DNA from: an uncultured Pseudorhodoferax sp.
GTDB lineage: Bacteria; Pseudomonadota; Gammaproteobacteria; Burkholderiales; Burkholderiaceae
Direction of reading: 5' to 3'
DNA length: 6,450 nt
NCBI GenBank assembly: GCA_913776795.1
Contig: CAJYRH010000355.1
Coordinates: 1-6,450, forward strand
The notes under the pieces were generated by a model. It was given only the letters and a program-made list of their open reading frames with translations. It had not been told where the DNA came from and made no database searches. Of this stretch, positions 1 to 6,450 are shown piece by piece. Within the stretch, counting starts at the first letter, position 1, and each line of letters begins with the position of its first letter. Position numbers and translations under genes: made by a program.

Positions 1-1300
1 GCTCGCGCGGGATGCCGGGGCCGGTGTCGGCCACCTCGACCTGCACGCCGCCCTGCGCACCACCTGCGCCGCGCAGCAGCCGCACGGCGATCTCGCCGCC
101 CTCGGGCGTGTGGCGGATGGCGTTGTCCAACAGGTTGGTCAGCACGCGCTCGATCATGCCGAGGTCGGCGTGCACCACCGGCAGGCCGGGCGCGATGTCG
201 GCCACCAGCCGCTGGCGGCGCGCCTCGGCGGCCAGCTCGAACTTCTGGAACACGTCCTGCACCAGGTCGGCCAGCGCGAAGCGCTCCTTCTCGGGCTGCA
301 CCACGCCGTATTCCAGGCGCGCCAACTCGAACAGCTCCTGCGCGAGCCGGCCGACCTTGCGGCTCTGGCCCAGCGCGATGTCCAGGTAGCGGCGGCGTTC
401 CTCGGCGTCCAGCAGGTCGGCCTTCATGCGCAGCGTCTCCAGGTAGCCGTGCAGCGAGGTCAGCGGCGTGCGCAGGTCGTGCGAGATGTTGGCGAACAGC
501 TCGCGGCGCTGCTGGTCCTGGGCCGACAGCGCCTTCCACTGCGCGTGCACGCGCTGCCCCATGCGCGCGAAGGCCTGGCCCAGCGCGCCGATCTCGTCGT
601 CGCGCGCGGCCGACGCCTCCAGCGCCGGGGTGTGGCCCAGTGCGTCGGCCCCGCCGTGCTCGGCCTCCTGCACGGCCGCGGTGAGCCGGCGCAGCGGCCG
701 CGTGATGAAGTGGAACGCCACCAGCCCCGCCAAGAGGCCCAGCAGCGCCACCAGCGCCATGGCCCACAGCGTGGTGCGCAGCGCCGAGCCGGCGGCCAGG
801 CGGGCGCTGATGGCGTCGCGGTTCTCGCCCGACAGCACCACGTAGACATAGCCGGCCGCGCGCCCGTCCACCTGCAGCGGCGCGGCGCTGAAGACCTTGG
901 CGGCACCCGGGCTGCGCGGGTCCTCGCCCAGCACCGGCAGCGCGGCGCCGGCCAGCAGGCGGCGCACCGGCGCCAGGTCGACGCGCTCGGCCTTCAGGTG
1001 GCCGGGCGGCGCGGCCTGGCCCACGATGCGGCCGTCGGCGTCGAGCAGGTAGACCTCCACGCTGGGGTTCACGGCCATCAGCATGTCGAACAGCCGGCGC
1101 ACGGCTGCGGGATCCAGCCCGCCCTGCCGCATCAGCTCGGCATGGCCGGCGATGTGCGCAGCCAGGCCCAGCGACAGGCGCTGCGTTACCTCGCGCTCCT
1201 GCCGCTCGCTGCTGGCCATCTGCAGCCAGGCCGACACGACCGAGCAGGCCAGCAGCAGCACGGCGAACACCAGCGACAGACGGCGCGACAGCGTCCTCAT
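1..1300 (-). CDS. Sensor histidine kinase of a two-component system (3' end cut off by window edge)
   Basis: The frame is open without a stop from ATG at 1300 to the window edge, giving 433 residues of an inner-membrane sensor kinase. A first membrane helix (about residues 10-26) and a second (about 178-197) enclose a periplasmic sensor domain of about 150 residues. A HAMP linker follows (Pro202 in TRPLRRL), then the dimerisation/phosphoacceptor helix with FANISHDLRTPL, where His274 is the predicted phosphorylation site. The N box NLLDNAIRHTP (389-399) and the first glycine box DTGPGIP (425-431) of the ATPase domain are visible; the rest lies outside the window. The start overlaps the stop of the response regulator gene as ATGA, which indicates translational coupling and a cognate pair. 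The stimulus is unknown. The sensor half carries Met57, Met73 and Met75, and Cys19 lies in the first helix. Oxidant sensing is only suggested by the neighbouring genes. Confidence 0.93.
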   Translation of the reverse strand, partial: MRTLSRRLSLVFAVLLLACSVVSAWLQMASSERQEREVTQRLSLGLAAHIAGHAELMRQGGLDPAAVRRLFDMLMAVNPSVEVYLLDADGRIVGQAAPPGHLKAERVDLAPVRRLLAGAALPVLGEDPRSPGAAKVFSAAPLQVDGRAAGYVYVVLSGENRDAISARLAAGSALRTTLWAMALVALLGLLAGLVAFHFITRPLRRLTAAVQEAEHGGADALGHTPALEASAARDDEIGALGQAFARMGQRVHAQWKALSAQDQQRRELFANISHDLRTPLTSLHGYLETLRMKADLLDAEERRRYLDIALGQSRKVGRLAQELFELARLEYGVVQPEKERFALADLVQDVFQKFELAAEARRQRLVADIAPGLPVVHADLGMIERVLTNLLDNAIRHTPEGGEIAVRLLRGAGGAQGGVQVEVADTGPGIPRE

Positions 1301-2040
1301 GCGGCCGGGTCCGCGGCGGCCTCGGCATCGCCGGCCACCAGCCGGTAGCCCCGGCCCCATACCGTGAGGATGCGGCGCGGCTGCGCCGGGTCGGCCTCGA
1401 TCTTGGTGCGCAGCCGGTTGATGTGGGTGTTGACGGTGTGCTCGTAGCCGTCGTGCTGGTAGCCCCAGACCTTGTTGAGCAGCTCCAGCCGCGAGAACAC
1501 GCGGCCCGGGTGCCGCGCGAAGAAGTGCAGCAGGTCGAACTCGCGCGGGGTCAGCTCGATGGGCCTGCCCTCGACCTGCACCTCGCGCGTGACCGGGTCC
1601 AGTCCCACGGCGCCGACCTCCAGCCGGCCCGACTCCACGCGTGCGCTGCGCGCCATGGCCTCGCTGCGCCGCAGCAGCGCACGCACGCGCGCCACCAGTT
1701 CAAGCACCGAGAAGGGCTTGGCCAGGTAGTCGTCGGCGCCCAGCTCCAGGCCCAGGATGCGGTGCACCTCGCTGGAGCGCGCGCTGGTGATGATGATGGG
1801 CGTGTAGCGGCCCACCCCGTGCTCGGCGCGCGCGGCGCGGCAGATCTCCAGCCCGTCCACGCCGGGCAGCATGAGGTCGAGCACCAGCGCGTCCCAGCGC
1901 CCGGCCTGCAGCGCGCCCAAACCGGCGTGGCCGTCGGCCGCGTGCGTGACGGCATAGCCCTCGTCGGCCAGGTGCATGCGCATCAGCTCGGCGATGTGGG
2001 CGTCGTCCTCGACGATCAGTACGCGCTTGGGGGTGTCCAT
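1297..2040 (-). CDS. OmpR/PhoB-family response regulator
   Basis: This is a DNA-binding response regulator of 247 residues. The N-terminal receiver domain (about 5-122) has the acidic pair Asp12-Asp13, the phosphoacceptor Asp55 in LVLDLMLPG, the switch residue Thr85 and Lys108 in LAKPF, so all the usual catalytic positions are present. The C-terminal winged helix (about 136-237) has ELTPREFDLL and the recognition-helix region HTVNTHINRLRTKI, ending in the hairpin WGRGYRL. The ATG at 2040 is chosen because MDTPKRVLIVEDD is the normal beginning of the family; an in-frame GTG at 2082 would add 14 residues with no family match. No strong ribosome-binding site is seen before either start. The gene is read divergently from the cytochrome b/molybdoenzyme genes, so the 99-bp region between them is a plausible target for this regulator. 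Its closest functional analogue by context is HprR (YedW), but that assignment is inference. Confidence 0.95.
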   Translation of the reverse strand: MDTPKRVLIVEDDAHIAELMRMHLADEGYAVTHAADGHAGLGALQAGRWDALVLDLMLPGVDGLEICRAARAEHGVGRYTPIIITSARSSEVHRILGLELGADDYLAKPFSVLELVARVRALLRRSEAMARSARVESGRLEVGAVGLDPVTREVQVEGRPIELTPREFDLLHFFARHPGRVFSRLELLNKVWGYQHDGYEHTVNTHINRLRTKIEADPAQPRRILTVWGRGYRLVAGDAEAAADPAA

Positions 2041-2075
2041 GGGGCCTGGATTGTGGAACCAAGCGGCGCGGCGAG

Positions 2076-5253: not shown

Positions 5254-5990
5254 AGAACCCTGTCGCAACCCAGCCTTCCATGCCGTCGCGCCGCGGAACG
5301 CTCACCGCCATGGCGCTGCTGCTGGGGGGCGGCATCGCCGCCTGGAAGGTGCTGCCTGCCATGGCGGCCGAGAGCGCCGTCGTCATCCCCCCGCCCCAGG
5401 ATGGCGGCACGCCGGCCCCCGGCGCCACCAGCGCGACGGCCGTGCTGGCCGGCGGCTGCTTCTGGGGCGTGCAGGGCGTGTTCCAGCACGTCAAGGGCGT
5501 CACGCAGGCGGTGTCGGGCTATGCGGGCGGCGACGCGCGCACCGCCAACTACAACGCCATCGGCTCGGGCCGCACGGGCCATGCCGAGGCCGTGCGCATC
5601 ACCTACGACCCACGGCAGATCGGCTTCGGCCAGATCCTGCAGATCTACTTCTCCGTGGTGCACGACCCGACCCAGCTGAACCGCCAGGGGCCGGACTGGG
5701 GAACACAGTACCGCTCGACCATCTTCGCGCAGAACGCCGAGCAGGCGCGCATCGCCAAGGCCTACATCGCGCAGCTGGACGAAGCCCGCAGCTTCCGCGC
5801 GCCGATCGCCACCACCATCGAGATGGACAAGCCCTTCTACATCGCCGAGGCCTACCACCAGGACTACATGACGCTGCACCCGAACCAGCCCTACATCGCC
5901 ATGCACGACCTGCCCAAGCGCGGGAACCTGCAACGCGTGTTCCCTGCGCTGTACCGCGACAAGCCGGTGCTGGTCGGCGCGGGCGCATGA
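5250..5990 (+). CDS. msrA: Peptide-methionine (S)-S-oxide reductase MsrA, exported, single-cysteine form
   Basis: This 246-residue enzyme reduces the S-diastereomer of methionine sulfoxide in proteins. The catalytic domain runs from about residue 62, with Cys70 in GGCFWGVQ, GYAGG at 90-94, GTQYRS at 151-156 and AYHQDY at 201-206. Cys70 is the only cysteine in the protein: the C-terminal resolving cysteines of E. coli-type MsrA are absent, so the sulfenic acid must be reduced directly by an outside thiol. Residues 1-39 look like an export signal, with SRRGTLT (twin-arginine-like) before a hydrophobic stretch and AMA as a possible cleavage site. It could alternatively remain as an N-terminal anchor. 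The start overlaps the CcdA-TlpA stop, with AAGGA at 5233-5237 and GAGG at 5241-5244 upstream. The coupling suggests the TlpA domain as its periplasmic reductant. Confidence 0.96.
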   Translation: MKNPVATQPSMPSRRGTLTAMALLLGGGIAAWKVLPAMAAESAVVIPPPQDGGTPAPGATSATAVLAGGCFWGVQGVFQHVKGVTQAVSGYAGGDARTANYNAIGSGRTGHAEAVRITYDPRQIGFGQILQIYFSVVHDPTQLNRQGPDWGTQYRSTIFAQNAEQARIAKAYIAQLDEARSFRAPIATTIEMDKPFYIAEAYHQDYMTLHPNQPYIAMHDLPKRGNLQRVFPALYRDKPVLVGAGA

Positions 5991-6450
5991 ACTGGAGAAC
6001 CCTCTTGGACCACGCACGCAGAACCCTGCTCCGCACCCTGGGCGGCGGCGCCGCGCTGGCCGCCGGCTGGCAGCTCGCGCCCGACGCACGCGCTGCCAAG
6101 GCCTATGCCGTGACGCGCACCGACGCCGAATGGAAGGCCAGTCTCACGCCCCAGCAGTACAAGGTGCTGCGCCAGGCCGGGACCGAGCGCCCCTTCTCGA
6201 GCCCACTCAACCACGAGAAGCGCGCGGGCACGTTCTCGTGCGCCGGCTGCCAGGCGCCGCTGTTCTCCTCCAGCACCAAGTTCGAGAGCGGCACCGGTTG
6301 GCCCAGCTTCTGGAAGCCCCTGCCCGATGCGGTGGAGAAGAAAAGCGACCGCAGCTGGGGCATGGTGCGCGACGAGACGCTGTGCGCCCGCTGCGGCGGC
6401 CACCTGGGCCATGTGTTCGACGATGGCCCGAAGCCGACCGGCCTGCGCTA
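5987..6450 (+). CDS. msrB: Peptide-methionine (R)-S-oxide reductase MsrB, exported (3' end cut off by window edge)
   Basis: 154 complete codons are visible. This enzyme reduces the R-diastereomer of methionine sulfoxide. The N-terminus has HARRTLLRTL and a Gly/Ala-rich hydrophobic stretch, a twin-arginine-like signal ending near residue 36. The SelR/MsrB domain follows from about residue 48, with structural zinc cysteines Cys85 and Cys88 (FSCAGC) and Cys133 and Cys136 (LCARC), SGTGWPSFW (101-109), and CGGHLGHVFDDGP (136-148). The sequence stops just before the expected catalytic cysteine motif (RYCINS-like). The ATG at 5987 overlaps the msrA stop as ATGA. An in-frame TTG at 6005 has a better ribosome-binding site (GGAGA at 5994-5998) and would still keep the twin-arginine segment, so either start is possible. 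With MsrA it would cover both sulfoxide stereoisomers in the envelope. Confidence 0.94.
   Translation, partial: MNWRTLLDHARRTLLRTLGGGAALAAGWQLAPDARAAKAYAVTRTDAEWKASLTPQQYKVLRQAGTERPFSSPLNHEKRAGTFSCAGCQAPLFSSSTKFESGTGWPSFWKPLPDAVEKKSDRSWGMVRDETLCARCGGHLGHVFDDGPKPTGLR

Follow-up and report, generated by a model that had tools for sequence, protein, structure and literature searches.

A candidate single-locus form of an OrhR-type regulon against periplasmic methionine oxidation in Pseudorhodoferax

Background

Repair of periplasmic methionine sulfoxide by MsrPQ-type enzymes and repair by thiol-driven MsrA and MsrB are usually treated as alternatives found in different bacteria. This study concerns a stretch of 6,450 nucleotides from an uncultured Pseudorhodoferax sp., a soil bacterium (the window, by which the whole stretch is meant), in which genes for a two-component system, a b-type cytochrome, a molybdoenzyme, an exported methionine-rich protein and a thiol-driven reductase module lie side by side. 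It is probable that the window holds, gathered at a single locus, a regulon of the OrhR type directed against periplasmic methionine oxidation, in which a sensor and a sacrificial sink are united with two kinds of repair.

The closest described system is the OrhK/OrhR-c3566-c3568 unit of uropathogenic Escherichia coli. As in the window, a kinase and a regulator stand beside genes for a cytochrome, a molybdoenzyme and a Met-rich peptide, and an operator of the form TCAC-N17-GTGA is common to both; in the passages cited, OrhR binds the promoter of c3566, in which TCACA-N15-TGTGA occurs, the c3566-c3568 operon of strain CFT073 is co-transcribed with a downstream operon, and mutants in c3566 and c3567 are sensitive to tert-butyl hydroperoxide (PMC8550376). 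The SigF/NrsF-yedYZ-mrpX system of perchlorate reducers assembles a Met-rich peptide, a molybdoenzyme and exported MsrA and MsrB into one oxidative-stress group, the exported reductases having been noted in 2015 in the SigF-MrpX-YedYZ islands of two strains; it is controlled by an extracytoplasmic function (ECF) sigma factor and its anti-sigma factor, whereas the window has a two-component system, and the cited passages do not mention the CcdA-TlpA fusion that the window encodes (PMC4623255). The Brucella BcrS/AbcS-bcrXQP system combines an MXKDX protein with an MsrPQ-like pair and is induced by hypochlorous acid (HOCl); unlike the window, it is under ECF sigma control, and MsrA, MsrB and CcdA-TlpA are not described in the passages concerned (PMC8315932). 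According to the cited passages on E. coli HprSR-MsrPQ, HOCl is sensed by a two-component system through periplasmic methionines and a membrane cysteine, and the molybdoenzyme repairs periplasmic methionine sulfoxide (PMC10151825). The pneumococcal CcdA-Etrx-MsrAB2 system runs from CcdA through a TlpA-like protein to extracytoplasmic MsrA/MsrB; it differs from the window in being Gram-positive, with separate CcdA and Etrx and a fused MsrAB, and a molybdoenzyme and a sink are not described in the passages cited (PMC3914529). The first-pass annotation knew of no description of the full set as one unit, and searches of open-access literature brought up no account of the whole combination under a single two-component system, although subsets of it have been published.

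Results and discussion

The window as an enlarged OrhKR-type unit

With a GC content of 70%, the window resembles Pseudorhodoferax (Comamonadaceae), and its nearest named loci are those designated L002 and L001. A leftward pair on the minus strand encodes a sensor histidine kinase (positions 1..1300; the N-terminal 433 residues, with HisKA, HAMP and the first half of HATPase_c, the C-terminus lying outside the window) and an OmpR-family, OrhR-like response regulator (1297..2040), recognised by a profile match, its E. coli relatives and a regulator tree. The rightward row, on the plus strand, comprises in order a b561-type cytochrome (2140..2787), a molybdoenzyme (2784..3575), an MXKDX-repeat protein (3676..3915), a CcdA-TlpA fusion (3976..5253), MsrA (5250..5990) and MsrB (5987..6448, cut by the window end). 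Overlaps of four bases, read from the sequence, join cytochrome to molybdoenzyme, CcdA-TlpA to MsrA and MsrA to MsrB, and suggest translational coupling. Every part listed in the first-pass annotation was found, although the window ends truncate the kinase and MsrB genes.

As in OrhKR, the homologous kinase and regulator genes diverge from the cytochrome-molybdoenzyme-Met-rich row. The comparison was made with E. coli plasmid and chromosomal relatives (L082 and L305, respectively) in place of the CFT073 record; both have the divergent layout, at 47-62% and 56-57% identity to the window. The kinase is 47% identical to that of E. coli plasmid p666 over 429 residues, while the regulator is 62% identical to its p666 and 57% to its chromosomal counterpart. 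In contrast to the window, the 7.4 kilobases (kb) of L082 hold no MsrA, MsrB or CcdA-TlpA. The window is, in short, a unit of the OrhKR type to which a thiol Msr module has been added. No adjacent pair of ECF sigma factor and NrsF was found in the window, where the two-component system occupies that slot. The closest relative is thus OrhK/OrhR-c3566-c3568, which the core of the window matches in homology, layout and operator, and not HprRS-MsrPQ, which had been put forward as a known relative. The window regulator fails the cut-off of the HprR NCBIfam model (154.8 against 353 bits), the molybdoenzyme falls below that of MsrP and the cytochrome is of a different family; HprSR-MsrPQ is also not known to include a Met-rich sink. 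Separately, the plasmid unit typified by L082 shows 68-82% protein identity to the chromosomal one, and matches to it occur in 73 of 5426 complete E. coli genomes.

One operator before two repair modules

Between the regulator and cytochrome genes, at 2079..2103, lies a predicted operator, a 25-bp inverted repeat TCACG-N15-CGTGA that conforms to the pattern TCAC(A/G)-N15-(T/C)GTGA of the OrhK/OrhR-type unit; the chromosomal relative L305 carries TCACA-N15-TGTGA upstream, identical to the published OrhR site. In 62 intergenic rows between regulator and operon (58 upstream of the cytochrome gene and four upstream of msrB, from 59 distinct places), a strict count found TCAC-N17-GTGA in 61 and the perfect TCACG-N15-CGTGA in 29; the left half is degenerate in L024. 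A matrix built from 44 unique sites, used with a threshold of 18, gave scores of at least 33.5 to its training sites, and 200 rounds of shuffling never exceeded 1.6. It matched before the cytochrome gene in 21 of the 22 Pseudomonas loci that have no local two-component system of the same family, and also in L144. Neither the 11 SigF-type or related named loci nor the 20 surveyed SigF-containing loci gave a match above threshold, and no operator match was found in SigF-type loci near the cytochrome-molybdoenzyme-sink genes.

Whole genomes were scanned with the pattern GTTATCACNNTTNNTTNAANTTTNCGTGA, allowing up to three mismatches, with the reversed pattern as a control. Three sets yielded 18 matches in 16 genomes, 41 in 21 Pseudomonas genomes and 33 over 49 genomes (18 of these without any); one genome being common to the first and third sets, the total is 91 distinct matches and 85 genomes, across which the reversed pattern gave none. 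The gene directly after the operator was in all 91 cases either the cytochrome gene of the cytochrome-molybdoenzyme pair (64) or msrB (27), counting one match (L227) to which one table assigned no gene, but where a locus from the same genome, L074, has the cytochrome gene. Both kinds of match are present in 24 of the 85 genomes. In 20 of the 21 Pseudomonas genomes each module has one match before it and there are no others, the two sites lying on separate contigs of draft assemblies; G1110, the exception, has the msrB match alone. In all 21 the regulator-kinase pair lies on one side of the msrB match and msrB-msrA on the other, and 13 of these loci carry CcdA-TlpA between their msr genes. The two modules are likewise split in G006, G226 and G296, and in the Acidovorax genome G1157, whose main locus (L039) has MsrA and no MsrB, a second match precedes an msrB without other system genes nearby (L300).

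The msrB module, which we call type II, was seen in L123-L126 as a kinase and regulator divergent from msrB-CcdA-TlpA-msrA, of the same family as those of the window (58-63% and 69-72% identical, respectively); the stretches fetched contained neither a molybdoenzyme nor a sink. Of 26 type II loci, 18 have CcdA-TlpA between their two msr genes. A regulator tree of 85 rows, three of them from outside the family, groups the two architectures: their labels need two changes, the fewest possible, against a mean of 25.2 when shuffled, with weak support for type II as a single clade (18/0).

Because the same operator ties the molybdoenzyme/sink operon to the msrB-(CcdA-TlpA)-msrA operon, we infer that the two would be co-regulated. 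It is this regulon that appears to be new here. The operator is conserved and, in the genomes examined, restricted to the two modules; together with the gene content, this is the basis of our reading. We lean towards the view that one two-component system runs a dual-fuel methionine buffer, and that the operator governs no detectable genes beyond the two repair modules, which lie apart on the chromosome in Pseudomonas and some Burkholderiales and are fused into one in the window. A chance neighbourhood of functionally unlinked genes could draw on the fact that the complete eight-gene order is found in just two other genomes, but the operator is shared and the modules recur in Pseudomonas, Comamonadaceae, Alcaligenaceae and Enterobacterales alike; the way the operator is distributed already contradicts this explanation, which is exceedingly improbable.

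Proposed mechanism

The signal, the substrate and its chemistry, and the flow of electrons are proposed by analogy with relatives. The kinase would sense a periplasmic oxidant, an invariant methionine and a mostly conserved membrane cysteine paralleling HprS, and the regulator would activate the rightward operon by way of TCACG-N15-CGTGA, as the conserved site and E. coli OrhR suggest. The exported MXKDX protein would be oxidised so that other envelope proteins are spared, a sacrificial role modelled on Azospira MrpX as reported in passages of two papers (PMC8315932, PMC8550376). Methionine sulfoxide might then be reduced along two routes, one leading from quinol through the b561 cytochrome to the Tat-exported molybdo-lipoprotein and the other from cytoplasmic thiols through CcdA and TlpA to MsrA (S-form) and MsrB (R-form), both restoring methionine in the sink and in envelope proteins. 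If this is true, the shared operator, sensor and sink make the need for both kinds of repair testable; candidate reasons for it include two electron sources, two sulfoxide stereoisomers, and a division between protein repair and buffering.

The kinase alignment agrees with such a sensing role. All 61 rows have Met75, in the periplasmic domain, and 56 have Cys19, which falls in the first hydrophobic stretch (58 distinct loci, three having been fetched twice). Periplasmic methionines and a membrane cysteine are required for HOCl sensing or signalling by E. coli HprS, according to the passages cited (PMC10151825).

Molybdoenzyme and cytochrome

The molybdoenzyme (PF00174, E=1.5e-33) bears a twin-arginine translocation (Tat) motif at RR34-35, a lipobox at Cys53 and, at Cys150, a putative molybdenum ligand; these residues are invariant in a 22-row alignment, and a script detected both Tat motif and lipobox in 117 of 124 rows. 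The PF00174 domain, conserved Cys150 and Tat signal are those expected of MsrP. The best match among solved structures is 1xdq (E=6.4e-13), titled as a bacterial sulfite oxidase and presumably E. coli YedY/MsrP; Cys150, which we take to be the molybdenum-ligand cysteine, aligns with a cysteine of 1xdq. The predicted structure had a mean predicted local distance difference test score of 51.7, too low for a fold search. The adjacent membrane cytochrome is proposed to be a quinol oxidase feeding the molybdoenzyme; in a domain search it matched PF01292 (cytochrome b561; E=1.2e-25) alone, with no match to the membrane domain of MsrQ, which we take to be of the ferric-reductase-like type. An MsrP-superfamily molybdoenzyme with a b cytochrome, as first annotated, is present, but the former lies below the MsrP cut-off, as do two E. 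coli relatives (81 and 73.4 bits), and the latter is of b561 type, outside the MsrQ family.

These departures leave room for a molybdoenzyme that acts on something other than protein methionine sulfoxide (a small sulfoxide, a chlorate-like compound or another substrate), the sink being repaired by MsrA and MsrB alone. The score of 83.7 bits against the MsrP NCBIfam model, whose cut-off is 207, the weak similarity to sulfite dehydrogenases and the different cytochrome family would all agree with this, as would L161 and L150, which pair a sink with the thiol module, L161 doing so without a molybdoenzyme. Nonetheless, 45 of the 62 surveyed loci have a molybdoenzyme no more than 5 kb from the sink, 35 of them with no MsrA or MsrB nearby, and the best structural match remains 1xdq. 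The cited passages also record the oxidant sensitivity of c3566 and c3567 mutants (PMC8550376). We consider a substrate of this other kind rather unlikely and prefer a molybdoenzyme that repairs methionine sulfoxide.

The proposed sink

The secreted Met-repeat protein of the first-pass annotation is borne out as a member of a named family (TIGR02953; 68.4 bits, cut-off 41). The 57 residues after its putative signal peptide hold 12 methionines and 10 M-x-K-D units, with no cysteine in this mature part. Met-rich sequences can bind copper(I), and the protein might accordingly bind or buffer copper or another metal, the reductases repairing metal-related damage and not that of hypochlorite; the plasmid relative L084 does lie near metal-transport, SCO and TlpA genes. 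We judge this distinctly improbable, given that a cytochrome gene or msrB always stands directly downstream of the 91 operator matches and that the repeats alternate methionine with lysine or aspartate and, in the window, lack cysteine. Published relatives, in the passages cited, respond to HOCl or peroxide (PMC8315932, PMC8550376).

For a survey centred on the sink, in which MXKDX proteins above the cut-off were counted, genomes were drawn by rank around G001, of which 11 of 150 (family), 27 of 349 (order) and 35 of 398 (phylum) were positive. Within 5 kb of 62 distinct MXKDX loci, a molybdoenzyme was found in 45, a cytochrome in 44, SigF in 20, a regulator in 14 and true CcdA-TlpA in three, L163 being excluded for a 30% match to the thioredoxin part only. 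The full set was present in one (L116). From these counts, regulator, molybdoenzyme, Msr and conduit emerge as exchangeable modules around the sink. Two thiol-containing variants were recorded in this survey: L161 (about 4200-8400) encodes SigF, a sink and MsrB-CcdA-TlpA-MsrA with no molybdoenzyme, and L150 (about 900-3800) encodes SigF, a sink and msrB-CcdA-TlpA with no molybdoenzyme nearby, each a thiol-only version of the buffer. In ten other MXKDX loci (L166-L172, L174, L175 and L177, from genomes of 6.1-8.8 Mb), system reductase, cytochrome and regulator were undetected within 5 kb, and the repeat protein there may have other partners.

The thiol module

The CcdA-TlpA fusion is DipZ-like, matching the solved DipZ domain 2hyx (E=2.5e-51), and is proposed to conduct electrons from cytoplasmic thiols; both APC motifs of CcdA and the CINC motif of TlpA are intact, and DsbD_TM scored 24.1 bits, slightly under its cut-off of 27.1, with AhpC-TSA and others above theirs. 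The exported MsrA (PF01625, E=1.4e-55) has a single catalytic cysteine in the motif GCFWG, which is found in 52 of 55 MsrA rows, the window included, 51 of the 52 having no later cysteine. Since it lacks a resolving cysteine, the MsrA of the window would need an outside thiol. The exported MsrB (PF01641, E=9.6e-43) has two CxxC motifs and a Tat-like signal, such as begins 21 of 29 MsrB rows and would be consistent with a zinc protein exported in folded form. The window end cuts the gene before the catalytic cysteine, which is presumably that of the RYCMN motif in the intact relative L115.

CcdA-TlpA could mainly serve other thiol clients, for example in cytochrome c maturation, its position in the cluster being a lineage-specific rearrangement. 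Its lack in sister clusters, its occurrence without Msr in L118-L121 and the DipZ-like relatives L081 and L127-L130, whose fetched stretches contain no Msr gene (none within 15 kb for L081, the DipZ locus of S. meliloti), are compatible with this. We regard such a role as unlikely, since in 18 of 26 type II loci the fusion is flanked by msrB and msrA and preceded by the operator, and since the window MsrA would need an outside thiol. CcdA-TlpA is an optional component: the nearest sister, L002, has none in its cluster. An inseparable trio of CcdA-TlpA, MsrA and MsrB was considered and rejected, because the sister, L118-L121 and the Pseudomonas loci break it.

Gene neighbourhoods and the case for one system

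Eighty named loci, the best 80 of a larger set, were fetched by molybdoenzyme similarity and their neighbourhoods tabulated by coordinates, genes overlapping a stronger match by more than 30 bases staying hidden. The recurrence of molybdoenzyme, cytochrome and MXKDX clusters (in 80, 77 and 75 of the 80, respectively) shows that their grouping is not due to chance; regulator (37), kinase (36), MsrA (36), MsrB (16), SigF (8) and NrsF (7) are less frequent, and CcdA-TlpA is present in six (four full, two partial). None of the 80 holds the complete set of the window, some being cut by contig ends (L009 stops inside CcdA-TlpA). A search for CcdA-TlpA over 399 genomes of the family led to two 88% relatives, L115 and L116, with the full eight-gene order of the window; L117 has every part except MsrB. 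The concern that the parts might adjoin only in this strain is thereby dispelled. The presence of CcdA-TlpA in the window, L115 and L116 but not in the closer L002, L004 and L001 requires repeated loss or recombinational exchange, the regulator of L002 being 99% identical to that of the window.

Several observations weigh against a single system, in addition to the MsrP score of the molybdoenzyme. The clusters of L002, L001 and L004 are without CcdA-TlpA, as are the msrB-msrA pairs of eight of the 21 Pseudomonas type II loci, while L118-L121 have CcdA-TlpA after the sink and no MsrA or MsrB nearby (in L120, kinase and regulator were also not seen). In the sink survey the thiol partners were few (MsrA in 12 and MsrB in seven of the 62 loci) and a molybdoenzyme was missing within 5 kb in 17, so that none of the reductases accompanies the sink consistently. 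The operator counts come from 85 genomes picked for carrying system parts or CcdA-TlpA, and G181 gave no match at up to three mismatches despite a cytochrome-molybdoenzyme-sink-CcdA-TlpA cluster, its nearest kinase being 43% identical. Among 369 genomes drawn class-wide, five matched the pattern and the reversed control gave nine matches; four of the five (L301-L304, 1.9-3.0 kb each) had no system genes and resemble chance. Taken with the control matches, these indicate that the 25-bp operator is a useful regulon marker only in system-carrying genomes, among them those of Pseudomonas and Burkholderiales. The suggestion of one system, made in the first-pass annotation, is upheld by an operator shared even across contigs, and is tempered by the rarity of the full single-locus set and the lack of CcdA-TlpA in L002.

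Variants and neighbouring genes

In L028, L036, L041, L044, L052, L142, L146 and L153, SigF/NrsF, or SigF alone, replaces the kinase and regulator. In L019 (5500-13500; Bordetella genomosp. 2), cytochrome-molybdoenzyme-MsrB-MsrA occurs twice in tandem with an operator per copy, either as a true duplication or as an assembly artefact. A DUF1223 protein (PF06764) with a CSSC motif lies beside the operon in five of the 80 named loci (L058, L060, L070, L073 and L077) and in 10 of the 62 surveyed loci.

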